Shown one piece after another: positions 504 to 9,288 of a DNA stretch of 9,500 nt; position 1 is the stretch's first letter, and each line of letters starts with the position of its first letter. Origin of the DNA: Clostridiales bacterium. Its GTDB lineage: Bacteria > Bacillota_A > Clostridia > Peptostreptococcales > Anaerovoracaceae. The notes beneath the pieces are model-generated. The model saw only the letters and a list, made by a program, of their open reading frames with translations, made no database searches and had not been told where the DNA came from. Location of the stretch: NCBI GenBank assembly GCA_015058265.1, contig SVCR01000043.1, positions 1 through 9,500 on the forward strand. The letters are read 5' to 3'. The position numbers were made by a program, and so were the translations under genes.

Positions 504-2285
504 GTGGTAAAGATGATATTCGATCACAGGAATAAAAATAATAACGATAATGAAAAGCGCAGGGTCAGCGCAAAGTGGCGCATCCTTGCTATAGGAGCAG
601 CGATCATGATCATGCTTTCTGCGTGCGGGACAGCTGCTACGCAAACGGCAGATACAGCTTCGGGAACTGAGACATCGACGACTGTGTATACTGCAGCAAG
701 CAAATCCGAGATGTTCACAGACCGCGATCTGTCAGGTGACTACGATGAGAGCAGTGCTGTCAAAGTTACACTCAACGGGAACTCGGCATCTGTCTCCGGG
801 AGCGAAGACGGAGTCAGCATAGACGGGAGCACGATCACGATAACGAAGGAAGGCACTTATATCCTGACGGGCTCTCTGACAGACGGGATGGTAGTTGTCG
901 AGGCAGGTGACAGCGACAAAGTCCAGATCGTACTCGATAACGCATCTGTCACATCTTCATCATCAGCCGCGCTTTATGTCAAACAGGCGGACAAAGTATT
1001 CGTAACGACTGCGGACGGGACACAGAATACCCTGGCGAACGGAGGCACTTTCACCGCGATAGATGACAACAACATCGATGGCGCAGTATTTGCCAAGGAT
1101 GATGTCACTTTCAATGGAAAGGGAAGTCTGACAGTGACATCACCTGCAGGCCATGGAGCCGTAGGCAAAGATGATGTCAAGTTTGCAGGCGGTACAGTCA
1201 CTATCGAAGCAGCGAAGCACGGAGTAGACGCTAATGACAGCGCGAGATTCGCTGAGGCGACTGTGAACATCACAGCGGGAACGGACGGAGTCCATGTGTC
1301 TGATGACTCTGATGCTGAGAACGGGGAAGCTTCGGACAGCTACTTCTACATCGCTGACGGAACATTGAAGATAAGCGCCGGCGATGATGGTATCCATGCA
1401 GATGCTGAAGCCATCACAGAAGGCGGAGCTATCGATATCACTGAATCATACGAGTCGATCGAAGCGCTGAGCATCAAGATCAGCGGTGGTGATATCAATG
1501 TGAAGGCTAAGGACGACGGCCTGAATGCTGCAGGAGGAAAAGCTTCAACAGGAAGTGATGTATTCGGAGAAGATGACTGGGCCGGCGGAAAACAGGGATT
1601 CTCTGATGGCGGCAGCGATGGTTCTATCGTTATCAGCGGAGGCGACATGCATATTACAGCCGGCGGTGACGGGATCGACTCCAACGGATCAATAGAGATC
1701 TCCGGAGGATATACACTCGTTACCGGGCCTACCCAGGGAGACACTTCGATCATGGACTATAATACAACGGCGACTGTGACGGGAGGCACATTCATCGGGA
1801 CAGGCGGCTCCGGAATGGGTGCGAACTTCTCAAGCGCGGAGAACCAGGGAGTCATCACGGTAAGTACAGGCGGACAGAGCGCAGGAACAGCGGTCAAGCT
1901 GACTGATGCAGACGGGAAGACTCTGGCAGAGGTCACGCCGGAACTGGACTATGATGTTGTGATGATCAGCACACCTGATATGAAGACAGGAAGTACATAT
2001 ACCCTGAGCGCGGGCTCATACTCAGAAACCATCGAACTGAATGACGCTGTTTACGGCAGTCTCAACGGCCGTGGCGGCATGGGACGCGGAAACGGCGGAA
2101 TGCCGGATATGAACAACGGTAATGGCGGAAAGGGCGGCATGCACGGCGGCCACGGAGGCCATGGCGGCAGAGGTCCGGGAAACAATAACTCGGATGGCGC
2201 TTCTGACAGCTCCGGATCTGATGGTATCACCGGTGCCACACAGGACTCGGGGAACGATCCGTTCAGCGGAGGGAGCGCAGCCTGA
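504..2285 (+). CDS. Carbohydrate-binding lipoprotein, Cthe_2159/DUF4353 type
   Basis: Exported lipoprotein of about 593 residues. Basic residues are followed by a hydrophobic segment and a lipobox LSAC with the lipidated Cys at residue 41. Residues about 70-515 are Gly/Asp/Ser/Thr-rich short beta repeats with recurrent GxDGI/V(H/D/N) turns, such as TDGVHVSDD (260s), GDDGIHADAEA (293-303), KDDGLNAAGG (336-345) and GGDGIDSNGSIEISGG (387-402). This is the pattern of the right-handed beta-helix family that includes Clostridium thermocellum Cthe_2159, which binds cellulose and polygalacturonate. Residues 521-560 form a Gly/His/Met/Asn-rich tail with GGHGGHGG. The last 25 residues contain DGITGAT (573-579), which resembles an ApbE flavinylation site. 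The start is uncertain: GTG 504 follows AGAAAGGA (492-499) closely, while ATG 513 follows AGGTGG; both give the same signal region. Likely role: surface glycan binding. The exact ligand is unknown. Confidence 0.85.
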   Translation: MVKMIFDHRNKNNNDNEKRRVSAKWRILAIGAAIMIMLSACGTAATQTADTASGTETSTTVYTAASKSEMFTDRDLSGDYDESSAVKVTLNGNSASVSGSEDGVSIDGSTITITKEGTYILTGSLTDGMVVVEAGDSDKVQIVLDNASVTSSSSAALYVKQADKVFVTTADGTQNTLANGGTFTAIDDNNIDGAVFAKDDVTFNGKGSLTVTSPAGHGAVGKDDVKFAGGTVTIEAAKHGVDANDSARFAEATVNITAGTDGVHVSDDSDAENGEASDSYFYIADGTLKISAGDDGIHADAEAITEGGAIDITESYESIEALSIKISGGDINVKAKDDGLNAAGGKASTGSDVFGEDDWAGGKQGFSDGGSDGSIVISGGDMHITAGGDGIDSNGSIEISGGYTLVTGPTQGDTSIMDYNTTATVTGGTFIGTGGSGMGANFSSAENQGVITVSTGGQSAGTAVKLTDADGKTLAEVTPELDYDVVMISTPDMKTGSTYTLSAGSYSETIELNDAVYGSLNGRGGMGRGNGGMPDMNNGNGGKGGMHGGHGGHGGRGPGNNNSDGASDSSGSDGITGATQDSGNDPFSGGSAA

Positions 2286-4610: not shown

Positions 4611-5154
4611 ATACATGAAGGCACACAGGACTGCGCTGGTATATCTGATAATAGCCGCGGCAGTCGGACTGTTCGGAGCGGTGTACGAGCATTTCAGCTT
4701 TGGCGTATATTCCAACTGCATGATATACGCATTCGCATTCCCTCTGCTGATGGGGACTCTGCCGAATATGCTCATCATACCTGCCAAAGCGCAAGCGGGC
4801 GGCGTGACAGCCGGTTCGCTGAGGAGATTCATATTCGAAGTGATATCATCGGGGATGTATCACGCGGCAGTCGCTTCGCTGACAGCGGGCAGCATTATGA
4901 AAGGGATAATAGAAATATACGGGACAAGCAACAAGCTGCTTATAGTATATCCGGCCGCGGCGCTCATTCTGGTCTTCGCGGCGGTCGTAAAAGAGATACT
5001 GTCAGAAGATGGTGAAGAGAAGGAGGCGAGAAAGCTCCTTACCGGAAACGGCGAGATAGTGTATTGCTCAAATCCCGGAAGCCTTGTTCAGAACAGGCAG
5101 TATCATAGCTGCGGCTATTCCGACAACTATGCCGGCAACAGTTCCGCTGAATAA
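4588..5154 (+). CDS. Unrecognised four-helix membrane protein
   Basis: A 188-residue protein starting at GTG 4588, five bases after AAAGGAG (4576-4582) and inside the last codons of the glycosidase gene (23 nt overlap), which implies translational coupling. Four hydrophobic segments are visible, at about residues 15-36, 41-64, 83-107 and 117-137. The segment AVYEHFSFGVYSNCMIYAFAF looks like a conserved family signature, but I cannot name the family. After KEILSEDGEEKEARKL the chain turns hydrophilic, and its last 28 residues (VQNRQYHSCGYSDNYAGNSSAE and before) are encoded opposite the 3' end of the Gx transporter gene. That tail therefore may be an extension past an ancestral stop: shifting the frame by one base at about 5050 would meet a TAG within GCGAGATAG. 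Last visible gene of the envelope operon. Function unknown; a membrane partner of the glycan system is inferred from position only. Confidence 0.75.
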   Translation: MTLFTSDRYMKAHRTALVYLIIAAAVGLFGAVYEHFSFGVYSNCMIYAFAFPLLMGTLPNMLIIPAKAQAGGVTAGSLRRFIFEVISSGMYHAAVASLTAGSIMKGIIEIYGTSNKLLIVYPAAALILVFAAVVKEILSEDGEEKEARKLLTGNGEIVYCSNPGSLVQNRQYHSCGYSDNYAGNSSAE

Positions 5155-5586
5155 GAGAACAGGAAAATATGAGAAGATGCGAAGATCTTCTATCAGGGCA
5201 GCCGCTACCAGTAGCTGCCCTAAGTTGTGAAGGACACCTGCTGCCATGCTGACACCGGTCACGGAGAACAGATCGGTCTTCTTGAGCAGGATCATTCCGG
5301 TGAGACTTACGGCAGCTCCCGCGAGAGAGTACAGCATACCGAATGCACCGTTGAACAGCAGTCCTGCGATCACTATCCTTACTACGCTGACGCAGACGGC
5401 TTCCTTCGATCCGTATCTGTACAGAGCGATCAAAGTCACGATGTTGGCTATCCCCAGCTTGATGCCCGGAATGCCCGGGTTGTACGGGATGATGGCTTCA
5501 ACATAGGAGAAAATAAGAGCAAGTGAAGCCAGAAGAGCGACTCTCGCGATGAACCTTGCAGAAGTATTACGAGGTGACTGAGTCAT
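5068..5586 (-). CDS. Gx transporter family protein (heptaprenyl diphosphate synthase component I-like)
   Basis: I place the start at ATG 5586 on the minus strand because AGGAGGTG (complement of 5593-5600) lies six bases upstream. A GTG at 5595 is part of that ribosome binding site and an unlikely start. The product is 172 residues, almost all membrane-embedded. It has the family signature PGIPGIKLGIANIVTLIALY (37-56) and GVLHNLGQLL (117-126), with five or six predicted helices. The Pfam family is named for component I of heptaprenyl diphosphate synthase, but its members are now mostly annotated as Gx or ECF-like transporter subunits. The gene overlaps the upstream NusG domain II gene by 20 nt, so the two are co-translated. 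As I recall, this pair resembles EetA/EetB of flavin-based electron-transfer loci, which fits the divergent apbE. The transported substrate is not evident. Confidence 0.85.
   Translation of the reverse strand: MTQSPRNTSARFIARVALLASLALIFSYVEAIIPYNPGIPGIKLGIANIVTLIALYRYGSKEAVCVSVVRIVIAGLLFNGAFGMLYSLAGAAVSLTGMILLKKTDLFSVTGVSMAAGVLHNLGQLLVAAALIEDLRIFSYFPVLLFSGTVAGIVVGIAAAMILPVLNKASGI
5195..5221. other. GC-rich inverted repeat inside the convergent gene ends
   Basis: AGGGCAGC (5195-5202) and GCTGCCCT (5214-5221) form a perfect 8 bp stem with an 11-base loop. It starts 40 bases after the stop of the + strand operon and lies inside the Gx coding sequence. A perfect 10-base palindrome GAAGATCTTC sits at 5181-5190. 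There is no T-run on either strand, so this is not a standard intrinsic terminator. It could slow or stop convergent transcription, or merely reflect the coding sequence for a hydrophobic helix. Confidence 0.4.
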
Positions 5587-6001
5587 ACTCTTCACCTCCT
5601 CTGCCTTCGATACGTACTACAAGTCGGTTCGGCAGACATACGACACTCTCACCGCTCTGAGAGATCGATGAATGCTTGACGCATACCTGATTCTTGCAGG
5701 AAGCCTCAGTTACTGAGACGGTACCTCCTTTGATGTCAACGACATTATAATGCGTGTACTGATCTGAAGCGGATCTGCTGTCATCGGGAATACTGCCCGC
5801 AGATGCTTTTTCCTGTGGAGCGGGAACTATGACCCGGCGATCCTCTGCCAGGGGATATGTCGCATACAGATCACCTCCGGATTCGATCACGACTGTATCG
5901 CCTCCGGAATGAGACATTGCAAGGACAGCCGAAGCTGCCAGCCCGGCTGCGATCAGGAAGATAAATAATATGATGTCTGCTTTGCGAATGTACTTCTGCA
6001 T
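5567..6001 (-). CDS. NusG domain II-containing membrane-anchored protein
   Basis: A 144-residue protein: one N-terminal membrane helix (about residues 9-29) and an extracytoplasmic NusG_II beta domain. The characteristic C-terminal pattern is present, with Cys102, Cys107 and Cys122 in SCKNQVCVKHSSI and GESVVCLPNRLVV; family members usually read CPxxxCVxxGxIxxxGxxIVCLPN. The segment between residues 60 and 82 is Ser/Asp-rich and may be an insertion. Despite the name, this is not the transcription factor NusG. Genes of this type pair with the Gx transporter family, as here (20 nt overlap), and are found near apbE. The start ATG at 6001 has no convincing ribosome binding site: the upstream 25 bases are AT-rich with no purine run. 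Either translation is weak or the transcript begins very close to the start codon. Confidence 0.85.
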   Translation of the reverse strand: MQKYIRKADIILFIFLIAAGLAASAVLAMSHSGGDTVVIESGGDLYATYPLAEDRRVIVPAPQEKASAGSIPDDSRSASDQYTHYNVVDIKGGTVSVTEASCKNQVCVKHSSISQSGESVVCLPNRLVVRIEGRGGEEYDSVTS

Positions 6002-6076: not shown

Positions 6077-7207
6077 GTGCGAAATCAACTCGGATCACAC
6101 ATAACAATAGGGAAAACTGTTAAGGCGGCTCTGCTGATGTGTCTTATGGCAGTAATGATTATAACACAGGCAGCTTGCAGCAGCGAAGTACAAAACGGAG
6201 CTTCCGGAGGAACAGGCAGCGAGCCTGTGACCGGCGAGAATTATTATCTCGACACGATCTGTAATGTCTCGATATACGCGATGAAAGATCAGGACGGCAA
6301 TGAAGTTCCGGCAGCGGATGTGAAGGACAGTGCGGAAGCTGCGATAGACAGAGCCTTCGACCTGTGCGCTGAGCTTGACAAGAAGCTCAGCAGAACACAA
6401 GAGGCTTCTGAGATCAGTAAGATAAACGAAGCCGGGGGAGAGTGGGTCGAAGCAGAACAGGATACGCTTGACCTGATCAAATCCGGTCTGGATTATTCAG
6501 CTCTGTCAGACGGGGATTTTGACATCACCATCGGAGGGGTGACTGATCTGTGGGATTTTCACGCGGATCCTGAAGATGCTGAGGTACCTGACGCCAATGA
6601 CGTTGAAGAGGCGGTCAAGCACGTTGATTATAAAAATGTTGAGATCGAGGGCGGCAAGGTGAGGATCAAGGATCCTGACGCCAGGATCGACCTCGGCGGG
6701 ATCGCGAAGGGCTATATCGGCGACAGGATGACAGAGGTCCTGGAAGAAGACGGCGTGACTTCAGGGATAATCAATCTCGGGGGCAATGTCATATGCATCG
6801 GGGGCAAGGACAACAGCAAGGAAGGCGATGAAGGGAGCTTCGTTATCGGAGTTGAAGCGCCATATTCCGACAGAACTGAGATCGTAGGCAAAGTCAATGC
6901 CAGAGACATGACCCTCGTTACTTCCGGTGTTTATGAGAGACAGATCGAAGTAGACGGAAAGACATATCATCACATCCTCAGCACGGAGACGGGCTACTCA
7001 GTCGAGACAGACATCGACGCTGTGACTCTTGTGGGCGATAAAGGTCAGTCTAGGGATCTCGATGCTCTCAGTACGATCTGCCTCATCAAAGGCCATGATA
7101 AAGCTAAGGAGCTTATTGAGAACACCCCGGGGGTCGAAGCGGTCTTCATTCTGAGCGACGGAAGTACGGATCAGACAAGCGGAATGAGATTCGAGCCGGC
7201 GCAGTGA
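6077..7207 (+). CDS. apbE: FAD:protein FMN transferase (ApbE family), exported
   Basis: A 376-residue exported enzyme that attaches FMN from FAD to a Thr or Ser of extracytoplasmic target proteins, using Mg2+. The N terminus has basic residues, a hydrophobic core (17-33) and Cys34 in TQAAC, a plausible but imperfect lipobox because position -3 is Gln. Family landmarks in order: YYLDTICNVSIYA (56-68), LSRTQEASEISKIN (104-117), FDITIGGVTDLWDF (148-161), DLGGIAKGY (205-213), INLGGNV (232-238), VTSGVYER (281-288), YHHILSTETGY (297-307) and LDALST (328-333), the last carrying the expected metal ligands. The start is GTG 6077, with AAAAGGA at 6059-6065 eleven bases upstream; the nearer ATG at 6065 runs into a stop after three codons. 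It is divergent from the NusG_II/Gx pair, and a degraded FMN-binding gene lies downstream. Its current targets may be elsewhere in the genome, for example Rnf subunits (inference). Confidence 0.93.
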   Translation: MRNQLGSHITIGKTVKAALLMCLMAVMIITQAACSSEVQNGASGGTGSEPVTGENYYLDTICNVSIYAMKDQDGNEVPAADVKDSAEAAIDRAFDLCAELDKKLSRTQEASEISKINEAGGEWVEAEQDTLDLIKSGLDYSALSDGDFDITIGGVTDLWDFHADPEDAEVPDANDVEEAVKHVDYKNVEIEGGKVRIKDPDARIDLGGIAKGYIGDRMTEVLEEDGVTSGIINLGGNVICIGGKDNSKEGDEGSFVIGVEAPYSDRTEIVGKVNARDMTLVTSGVYERQIEVDGKTYHHILSTETGYSVETDIDAVTLVGDKGQSRDLDALSTICLIKGHDKAKELIENTPGVEAVFILSDGSTDQTSGMRFEPAQ

Positions 7208-7291
7208 GTTTTGCACTGAGTAGAAGAATAGCAGGATCGAAATAGGATCAAAAATATCCTTTGACATGGATCGAGAATATTGTTGTATTTG

Positions 7292-7331
7292 AAAGCACAG
7301 ACTGCCTGATCACGGCGCCTGTGCTTTTTTC
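7292..7331 (+). terminator. Rho-independent terminator after apbE
   Basis: AAAGCACAG (7292-7300) pairs perfectly with CTGTGCTTT (7319-7327); a smaller inner GCC/GGC stem can form in the loop. The right arm runs into TTTTTT (7325-7330). It lies 85 bases after the apbE stop and separates apbE from the broken FMN-binding gene. Confidence 0.85.
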
Positions 7332-7413
7332 TGTACTGAAGTCGCGTTCCGATACGGGAAATGCCGGCGATTCAGATTCGGCTCAAATCAAATATTGAAA
7401 GGATCATCTGACC

Positions 7414-7598
7414 ATGGGAAAAAATTGCATTGTTTTATCGAGAAGGATCGCAGCGATACTGATCACTGCGATCATGATCCTCACTAGGGTGCCGGTGTCG
7501 ATGACGTGACCGGTGCGACATGCACTTCGTCAGCATTGATCGAAATGATACATAGAGTATTATCGGGTGAAGGCACCGTGACAGAAAGCGCGGGATAA
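7414..7598 (+). pseudogene. Remnant of an exported FMN-binding (FMN_bind) domain protein
   Basis: Two pieces in different frames look like the ends of one gene. The first, ATG 7414 to about 7485, has GAAAGGA (7397-7403) ten bases upstream and encodes a signal-peptide-like start, MGKNCIVLSRRIAAILITAI and so on; it stops at TGA 7507-7509. The second frame, 7488-7598, reads GAGVDDVTGATCTSSALIEM and then IHRVLSGEGTVTESAG before TAA 7596-7598. VDDVTGATCTSSALIEM matches the end of FMN_bind domains, where (S/T)GATxTS holds the Thr that ApbE flavinylates (here Thr, codon 7518-7520). A TAG at 7485-7487 closes the second frame just upstream, so the pieces cannot be read as one protein without a frame change. 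The missing middle, usually 60 or more residues, implies an internal deletion near 7480-7488. Position after apbE strongly supports the call. Family identity is from motif only. Confidence 0.7.
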
Positions 7599-7650
7599 CA
7601 GCTTGCTGCAGCTTTGTCTCGGACGGATAAGCTTGCTGCAGCTTTGTCCT
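7593..7650 (+). repeat. Imperfect tandem duplication, about 30 bp unit
   Basis: GCTTGCTGCAGCTTTGTC occurs at 7601-7618 and again at 7631-7648. Both copies are preceded by GGATAA (7593-7598 and 7625-7630) and followed by TCGG-type sequence, with small indels between copies. Each unit contains the palindrome GCTGCAGC. The first GGATAA contains the stop codon of the FMN_bind remnant, so the duplication begins at the end of that gene. No coding role is evident. Confidence 0.75.
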
Positions 7651-7700
7651 CGGCTAAATTCAAAAAGGACCAATGATCGGACACAATGACTGCGGACGTA

Positions 7701-7709
7701 TGTTATAAT
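7701..7709 (+). promoter_or_regulatory. Extended -10 promoter for the surE-isochorismatase gene
   Basis: TGTTATAAT is an exact extended -10 element and is identical to the one in front of apbE. No convincing -35 box lies 16-18 bases upstream. Transcription would begin near 7716, giving a leader of about 40 bases before ATG 7755. Confidence 0.55.
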
Positions 7710-7754
7710 TAAAAGCCGATGAAGGTTTAGATTATTCATAAAGGGGATCTGCAG

Positions 7755-9101
7755 ATGAATATACTCATTACTAATGATGACGGAATAGAGGCTCTCGGAA
7801 TCAGAAAACTGACAGCTGCGCTCAGTGAGTACGGTGATGTTTACGTCGCAGCTCCTGCAGAACAGCAGAGCGCGAAGAGCCAGAGTATAACTACCAGAGA
7901 GCAGATACATCCTGTCGAAGTACCAATGTTCGGAGCTGTTCAGGCCTGGGCAGTTGACGGGACCCCGACTGACTGCGTGATGTGGGCAGTGAAGCATTTC
8001 CGGGACAGGGGCATAGAGTTTGACCGTCTTTTCAGCGGTATCAATCACGGACATAATTACGGTATCGCCGCATACTATTCGGGCACGATAGGCGCAGCAA
8101 GAGAGGGCGCGCTGAATGGTATTCGTTCTGTTGCGATGTCTGTCCGTTCTCATGGCGCATCCGAATTCGACTATATATGCAGTCTGATACCTAGACTGAT
8201 GGAAATGTCTTCATCACTTACACCTGCTACTATACTGAGCGTGAATGCTCCTAATCTTCCGTCATGGGCTGTAAAAGGTGTCAAAGTCGTTGAGGTAGCT
8301 CCTTGGGGATACCGTGAAGGTTTCGGGTTCACTGAGACTGAGCCGGGTATGTACAAGATGGGAGCGCATGCTATCGAGCCGCCTGTCAGGGAACTGGCGG
8401 GAAGGACTGCAGATTTTGCCTATGGTTACGGAAGGAAGTACGCCGGCACTTCAGGCGAGCACAGATATGATATCGATTATGTGCTCGACGATTATGCAAC
8501 TATCAGCCCGCTCGTTTCACATACATCGGATGATACCGCGCTGAGAAAGCTTCAGGGACTGTTCCCGGATGAAGAGACATTGGCAGTCTTCGTTGACGTG
8601 CAGGAGAATGCTGTATCCGGAGTGATCAGCAGAGACCGCTTCGAGAAGAATTTATTCGGCTTTTCCCGCTGCATCAACAGACTCGGCCTGCCGTCCCTCA
8701 TCACCGAGCTGTATGGGATGGGCAATACTATTCCTGCAGCAGTCCCGGAGGGAGGAAGAACTGAGACGGTTGTCAGAAGAGAGTTCAGTGCGTGGGGTTC
8801 GGCAGATTTCTCCGCCAAAATGCAGAATGTGAAAACCGGCAGGGTAATGATCGCCGGCGCGGAGACTCACGCATCTGTACTGAGGACGGCACTGGACTTC
8901 AGAGACAAGGGCTATGAAGTGACCGTTATAGAGGATTGCTGTGCGTCGAGAGGCGGGCATGATCATAAGATGGCGATCGAGGCTATGAGATCAGCAGGCT
9001 GCACCATAATGACATACAGAATGGCTGTAACACAGCTGCTCTATACGACTAATCACCCGGCAGCTGAAGCCGTTATGAAGATAATGAATGAAAGAGACTG
9101 A
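7755..9101 (+). CDS. surE: SurE nucleotidase fused to an isochorismatase-like domain lacking the catalytic Cys
   Basis: A 448-residue protein; ordinary SurE is about 250. ATG 7755 follows AAGGGGA (7741-7747) by seven bases. Residues 1-255 are SurE (5'/3'-nucleotidase): NILITNDDG with metal ligands Asp8 and Asp9, APAEQQSAKSQSIT (33-46, Ser39 in the ligand position), AVDGTPTDC (66-74), SGINHGHNYG with Asn97 (94-103) and YYSGTIGAAREG (107-118). Residues 274-445 are an isochorismatase/cysteine-hydrolase domain: VFVDVQ with Asp281, RREFSAW (341-347), AGAETHASVLRTALD (367-381), EDCCASRGGHDHKMAIEAM (393-411) and a C-terminal NHPAAEAV. In active relatives the third motif is GxETHxCV; here Ser374 (TCT at 8874-8876) replaces Cys, and Arg341 appears to replace the Lys. 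The nucleotidase half looks intact, while the second half may be inactive, regulatory or altered. It is apparently monocistronic. Confidence 0.88.
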   Translation: MNILITNDDGIEALGIRKLTAALSEYGDVYVAAPAEQQSAKSQSITTREQIHPVEVPMFGAVQAWAVDGTPTDCVMWAVKHFRDRGIEFDRLFSGINHGHNYGIAAYYSGTIGAAREGALNGIRSVAMSVRSHGASEFDYICSLIPRLMEMSSSLTPATILSVNAPNLPSWAVKGVKVVEVAPWGYREGFGFTETEPGMYKMGAHAIEPPVRELAGRTADFAYGYGRKYAGTSGEHRYDIDYVLDDYATISPLVSHTSDDTALRKLQGLFPDEETLAVFVDVQENAVSGVISRDRFEKNLFGFSRCINRLGLPSLITELYGMGNTIPAAVPEGGRTETVVRREFSAWGSADFSAKMQNVKTGRVMIAGAETHASVLRTALDFRDKGYEVTVIEDCCASRGGHDHKMAIEAMRSAGCTIMTYRMAVTQLLYTTNHPAAEAVMKIMNERD

Positions 9102-9211: not shown

Positions 9212-9288
9212 GCTGTTGTAGCTCAGGTGGTAGAGCACATCCTTGGTAAGGATGAGGTTCGGCAGTTCGAGTCTGCTCAACAGCTCCA
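9212..9288 (+). tRNA. tRNA-Thr (anticodon GGT)
   Basis: A full cloverleaf is visible. Acceptor GCTGTTG (9212-9218) pairs perfectly with CAACAGC (9278-9284). The D stem is GCTC/GAGC (9221-9224, 9233-9236). Anticodon stem CATCC/GGATG flanks the loop TTGGTAA with anticodon GGT at 9245-9247. T stem GGCAG/CTGCT (first pair G-T) flanks TTCGAGT. CCA is encoded at 9286-9288. The variable loop is six bases. A Thr(GGT) tRNA immediately before an EF-Tu gene is also the arrangement at E. coli thrT-tufB. Confidence 0.95.

Follow-up and report, generated by a model that had tools for sequence, protein, structure and literature searches.

A remnant of an FMN_bind gene beside an intact apbE, and a predicted C-terminal flavinylation tag on a putative lipoprotein of the Cthe_2159 family, in a Clostridiales bacterium

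In Listeria, the EET-type gene cluster encodes an NADH dehydrogenase dedicated to it as well as an intact flavinylated carrier. Related systems are described in several papers: PMC8238504 defines multi-flavinylated and NapH-like systems and notes genomes with an orphan apbE, PMC10339131 concerns proteins (SaFMN3 and CbFMN4) to which three and four FMNs are covalently bound, and PMC9973259 ties EetB (PF07456) to ApbE. Two new candidate groups, Flavodoxin_4 and FMN_red, are put forward in PMC11334425, the motifs of FMN_red sitting on an unstructured C-terminal extension, and according to PMC12052999 seven residues suffice for ApbE, such tags performing best at the termini.

The stretch of DNA analysed here (the window) comprises 9,500 nucleotides of a Clostridiales bacterium, and in it, as in the multi-flavinylated NapH-like and EET-type clusters (PMC8238504 and PMC10339131), the C-terminal end of an FMN_bind protein with its flavinylation motif lies by apbE and eetA-eetB. 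Unlike in those clusters, however, what is left is a remnant that keeps 23 of 77 profile positions and has no signal start in frame. The arrangement of EetB and a NusG_II protein divergent to apbE recalls the EetB-type FAD export with ApbE of Listeria (PMC9973259), although the locus in the window has no intact FMN_bind carrier. A further protein of the window resembles the FMN_red extensions and the engineered flavin-tags (PMC11334425 and PMC12052999) in that a short motif is found on a flexible C-terminus, with apbE near and no FMN_bind domain; in contrast to these, its body is a Cthe_2159 beta fold without a known flavin site, and its modification is predicted. This body is like Cthe_2159 of Clostridium thermocellum (PDB 4peu and 4phb) in both sequence and fold, whereas the protein of the window, which has 593 residues and is predicted to be a lipoprotein, also has a disordered Gly-rich tail bearing the tag.

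The flavin transferase gene apbE (6077-7207, forward strand) is intact, as the earlier note had stated, with a full-length match to PF02424 of 255 bits that covers profile positions 2-266 of 266. On the reverse strand lies a NusG_II domain protein (5567-6001, PF07009), which is EetA-like, EetA being a NusG_II protein. Next to it, also on the reverse strand, is an EetB homologue (5068-5595), a predicted FAD-export S subunit identified through PF07456, the family given for EetB in PMC9973259. The window has eetB together with apbE, as in an EET-type locus; neither an intact flavinylated carrier nor a dedicated NADH dehydrogenase was found among the window genes scanned against Pfam. The conserved downstream neighbour of apbE (7755-9101, forward strand) is, by Pfam, a SurE nucleotidase fused to an isochorismatase-like domain, and tblastn matches to it in genus relatives span most of its length.

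The 547-bp interval between apbE and surE holds two pieces of a dead gene. Translation of 7488-7598 (forward strand) and its search against PF04205, a check that the earlier note had proposed, gave GAGVDDVTGATCTSSALIEMIHRVLSGEGTVTESAG followed by a stop and a match of 23.0 bits, above the gathering cut-off of 22; together with a match to the metagenome protein P0123 (E 1.4e-9), this bears out the proposal that an FMN_bind remnant is present at 7414-7598. On the same two grounds we rejected a chance origin of this tail, which represents the C-terminal 36 codons and the stop of an FMN_bind protein. Because only profile positions 54-76 of 77 are left and the whole domain is absent, we regard it as a remnant and not as a working member of the family, even though it contains DDVTGAT (7500-7520), a complete form of the minimal flavinylation motif D-x-x-[S/T]-G-A-[S/T] as defined in PMC12052999. 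The other piece, the head, is a 31-codon ORF (7414-7509, forward strand) with a purine-rich site upstream and a start that is positively charged and then hydrophobic, and with it the lost gene probably began, as a signal peptide or membrane anchor. When 7208-7754 was shuffled 1000 times with dinucleotides preserved (one strand), charged-then-hydrophobic ORF starts occurred in 11 shuffles, and in 5 together with a purine-rich site upstream, with thresholds set post hoc on a sequence already seen; the likeness of the head to the N-termini of relatives was judged by eye only. A signal-like start with a ribosome binding site, in another frame than the tail, is thus plausible, as had been suggested. 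Head and tail are in different frames, no single frame of the window connects them, and the signal-like start is not in the tail's own frame. The statement that no start codon leads into the tail frame holds insofar as a TAG (7485-7487) closes that frame upstream, but a GTG does lie in frame at 7506, in a GTGA (7506-7509) where it overlaps the TGA (7507-7509) of the 31-codon ORF; a product from this GTG would be without the signal and without the Asp that opens the flavinylation motif. The FMN_bind gene at 7414-7598 is dead.

Other readings of the interval were also considered and set aside. The sole known RNA found in the whole window is a tRNA-Thr at 9212-9288, so a known RNA between apbE and surE was rejected, and the numbers of promoter-like sites (2, with 1.1 expected) and terminator-like sites (1, with 0.5 expected) led us to discard arguments from promoters and terminators. 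A perfect 19-nt direct repeat, AGCTTGCTGCAGCTTTGTC, occurs directly downstream of the remnant, at 7600-7618 and 7630-7648.

P0123 is a metagenome protein of 159 aa from another assembly, and its FMN_bind domain is complete (59.1 bits, profile 1-76). It was the single candidate and the single match in a search of about 5.8 billion proteins in which the tail alone was the query and candidates were limited to roughly 93-295 residues. The two share 31 of 33 residues, the last 29 being all identical, which fits the recent loss that the earlier note had considered. ApbE proteins other than the window's own were at most 79% identical to it among the matches listed, and therefore the identical tail would suggest that P0123 comes from the same or a very close species. 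A full-length protein of 237-752 residues with the tail of the window was not found (4 candidates, none scored); protein searches spanned about 93-295 and 237-752 residues. The 36-residue tail, a query too short to be informative, gave one weak match (E 0.028, with one internal stop) in 47 genus genomes; in the 349 family genomes no match reached E 1e-4, and no viral contigs with P0123 were confirmed.

The comparison with family relatives points to a larger parent protein. Three-domain FMN_bind proteins of about 421-442 aa are found in G335, G332 and G022, in each case beside a small FMN_bind protein, a Fer4_5 'NapH-like' 4Fe-4S membrane protein and apbE; eetA and eetB homologues are also present in the G335 and G022 clusters, the two covered by our Pfam scan. 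A recurring cluster of small FMN_bind, NapH-like, three-domain FMN_bind and large secreted protein was seen near apbE in L093, L094 and L095, and the large secreted protein of L093 and L095 is Shr-like_HID. Among domains found by motif search in the family loci L063-L107, the Cys that follows GAT in the window tail is present in 4 of 12 last domains, in 1 of 41 other domains and in none of 11 single-domain proteins. In three of five three-domain relatives, all 8 positions to the left of GAT in domain 1 are the same as in P0123, and to the right the best mean score of P0123 is with the last domains of such relatives; the residues left of GAT in the window tail fail to separate domain 2 from domain 3. 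The window tail most resembles the last of the three domains in such an FMN_bind protein, and from this likeness it follows that more than one domain was probably lost. The parent would have been a secreted or membrane-anchored, multi-flavinylated protein with three domains and about 430 residues, as in the family relatives. An out-of-frame internal deletion, by which about 1.1 kb of this probably three-domain gene went missing, may have fused the signal region to the end of the last domain, in line with the earlier note's proposal of loss by internal deletion, which P0123 and the relatives support. A second deletion form of one three-domain gene, this time in frame, seems to be represented by P0123, where the VDxV[S/T]GAT repeat would mark the fusion of domain 1 to this tail.

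Whether such a gene was ancestral to the locus was addressed in a genus sample of 47 genomes, taken from the genus of G001, the genome with the nearest surE relative (L001). A close ApbE is present in 41 of them. Of the first 30 loci, 27 have apbE directly adjacent to surE (gaps of -2 to 127 bp), as do 5 of the remaining 11, which makes 32 of the 41 genomes with apbE. The earlier note had suggested looking for an intact gene between apbE and surE in relatives, and none of the 32 adjacent intervals holds a P0123-like gene. Divergent eetA and eetB homologues accompany apbE in 38 of the 41; an exception to this order is G022, where FMN_bind genes lie in between and which, among the 47 genomes, has an intact multi-domain FMN_bind gene. 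FMN_bind pieces spread over two frames, beside masked sequence, were seen in G023 (L104:1170-1525), and may be a decaying carrier gene or a sequencing error. Very long frames of 1603-2604 aa in seven genomes (G009, G011, G013, G014, G019, G020 and G043) show weak partial FMN_bind matches, six of the seven below cut-off. Since apbE and surE are mostly adjacent in relatives without such a gene, it is probable that the FMN_bind gene is not ancestral but entered the apbE-surE site in the window's lineage and was later lost. The claim that the local flavin acceptor was lost thus stands as far as the remnant goes, but the loss probably took more than one domain and concerned a gene that had probably been added.

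Taken together, we consider it likely that 7414-7598 is what an out-of-frame deletion left of an added three-domain FMN_bind gene, ApbE having been kept for other proteins. The parent could instead have been a single-domain protein like P0123, the window then carrying a shorter deletion of such a gene; P0123, with its one complete domain, is in fact the sole homologue found with the tail of the window, and no longer one turned up, but the residues just before GAT differ (GAGVDDVTG in the window, STNVDAVSG in P0123) while the next 29 are identical, and a Cys after GAT is mostly a trait of the last domain in multi-domain relatives, so that we hold this origin to be unlikely, though not negligible. 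Somewhat less probable still is that the strain has an intact gene from which metagenomic assembly dropped the repetitive domains. Near-identical motifs are common to FMN_bind repeats and P0123 itself could be a collapse of this kind; the junction in the window, however, does not lie between two copies of a repeat, as the head is a signal-like region and not a domain.

We give very little credence to the idea that the gene is alive, and that a -1 frameshift or a coupled restart yields a membrane peptide of about 67 residues with a complete flavinylation motif. The frames of head and tail do overlap (7485-7509), the GTGA overlap is present, and seven residues would be enough for ApbE according to PMC12052999; yet no slippery heptamer was seen by eye in the overlap, which led us to reject a programmed frameshift, restart at the GTG would cost the product its signal and first Asp, and no conserved counterpart was found in relatives. 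The reading that we prefer remains the decay of a three-domain gene, and it raises the matter of what ApbE still modifies.

The ApbE of this organism probably survives because other extracytosolic proteins are served by it, among which RnfG and RnfD and, probably, the Cthe_2159-type lipoprotein encoded at 504-2285 would be the ones for which it was retained; that ApbE has other targets, as the earlier note had offered as one explanation, is likely, the candidates being RnfG/RnfD and the tail motif of this lipoprotein. A PF04205 match was obtained in 44 of the 47 genus genomes, and in 29 of the 30 loci looked at, the FMN_bind hit has homologues of rnfD, rnfG and rnfE around it. The motif of RnfG in this genus has no Asp at the first place in any of 34 rows (32 genomes; L002, L034-L061, L111 and L113-L116), its acceptor is Ser in 30 of the 34, and in 24 of the 29 RnfD rows read, TGPT stands in place of TGAT. 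Modification of RnfG may nevertheless occur, because according to PMC12052999 loss of the Asp has minor effects and Ser is accepted, less well than Thr. The remaining targets of ApbE are likely to include RnfG and RnfD of the Rnf complex.

The other candidate substrate is the predicted surface lipoprotein at 504-2285 (forward strand), which matches PF14262 with 237.9 bits (cut-off 25.8) and Cthe_2159 (4peu, 4phb) with a sequence E of 1.7e-31, the body of its predicted model superposing on 4peu and 4phb with a TM to target of 0.84-0.85. The beta body is well predicted, and the tail from residue 523 has a pLDDT below 50. A hydrophobic N-terminal helix (residues 18-37) in this model and a Cys41 invariant in 24 sequences would fit a lipoprotein, predicted to be extracytosolic. 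Orthologues are present in 30 of the 47 genus genomes, and in 21 of these 30 the gene and apbE share a strand, apbE following 1.0-6.9 kb downstream (at 3.8 kb in the window).

In the disordered C-terminal tail, residues 573-579 (2220-2240) read DGITGAT, the sole motif of the ApbE kind among eight window proteins scanned. Complete C-termini were available for 29 genus orthologues, one from the window and 28 from the 30 loci retrieved, the other two ending at a contig edge; 19 of the 29 have the motif D-x-x-[S/T]-G-A-[S/T] in the tail and nowhere else in the protein. A chance origin in Gly-rich tails was rejected, as shuffled tails gave a mean of 0.095 with the motif and a maximum of 3 in 2000 rounds, and other orders of its letters occurred at most once in the 29 tails; among 981 patterns of the same shape in the last 45 residues the motif is the commonest (19, against 8 for the next), although some relatedness among rows is left by these controls. 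The fixed letters are no test of constraint, since the 19 rows were chosen for the motif; the test lies in the codons at the fixed positions, which differ by synonymous changes whereas the residue itself changes at the two x positions, and in the residues that follow, Q or E in 19 of 19 and then L, M or I in 17 of 19. On a tree of the bodies the tag calls for 6 changes of state and is present in both main subclades. Ten of the 29 orthologues have no tag, near relatives of the window (L122, L123, L144 and L145) included, and its absence from L147 may reflect truncation, because the Cthe_2159-family protein of that genome (G007) has an internal stop.

Outside the genus the tag is rare. The family sample covered 60 loci from 59 of 62 genomes, and the tail motif was found in 3 of the 58 complete C-termini, two of them from genomes (G267 and G280) that are not among the ApbE matches; in L195 the motif is internal to the protein and not in the tail. 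In the class sample (106 genomes with a match) the tail motif was absent from the 30 best-scoring loci. A general terminal motif of these genomes was rejected, as 43 of 353 ORFs in L093-L148 have the motif within 110 residues of their end, and of these 24 lie in FMN_bind loci, 18 are Cthe_2159 proteins and 1 is another ORF, in L104. A DNA pattern for DxxTGAT[Q/E/..] matched 20 times in 17 of the 47 genus genomes, 15 times in Cthe_2159 tails and 5 times in frames of 14-122 codons, and a reversed control also gave 5 matches.

The Cthe_2159-family lipoprotein is, judging from these sequence comparisons, probably an ApbE target and a predicted flavin acceptor. We propose as its tag the residues D-x-x-T-G-A-T, with Q/E next and then usually L/M, where a disordered Gly-rich arm ends, and we lean towards the view, with doubt not far behind, that ApbE of the genus serves a new natural substrate, namely Cthe_2159-type lipoproteins with a predicted flavin on a C-terminal tag and no FMN_bind domain. 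No report joining PF14262 with flavin was found in the open-licence literature, and among open-licence papers on Cthe_2159, considered by title, nothing on flavinylation was recognised.

By itself the remnant is a dead gene of an ordinary kind, and yet a clear case of a lost flavin carrier whose modifying enzyme was kept; the question it poses, what ApbE still modifies, led to a testable candidate. The tag would be new if true, even though this kind of ApbE substrate is already known and the present one is predicted from sequence. Should the Cthe_2159 tail be flavinylated, a short terminal peptide would be all that ApbE needs to recognise some of its natural substrates, which scans restricted to FMN_bind or flavin-binding folds would overlook, and a polysaccharide-lyase-like surface protein of an anaerobic fermenter would bear a flavin. 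In that case the eetAB-apbE locus would have an electron carrier of its own, flexibly tethered, and such a carrier could be one reason why the adjoining FMN_bind carrier was dispensable.
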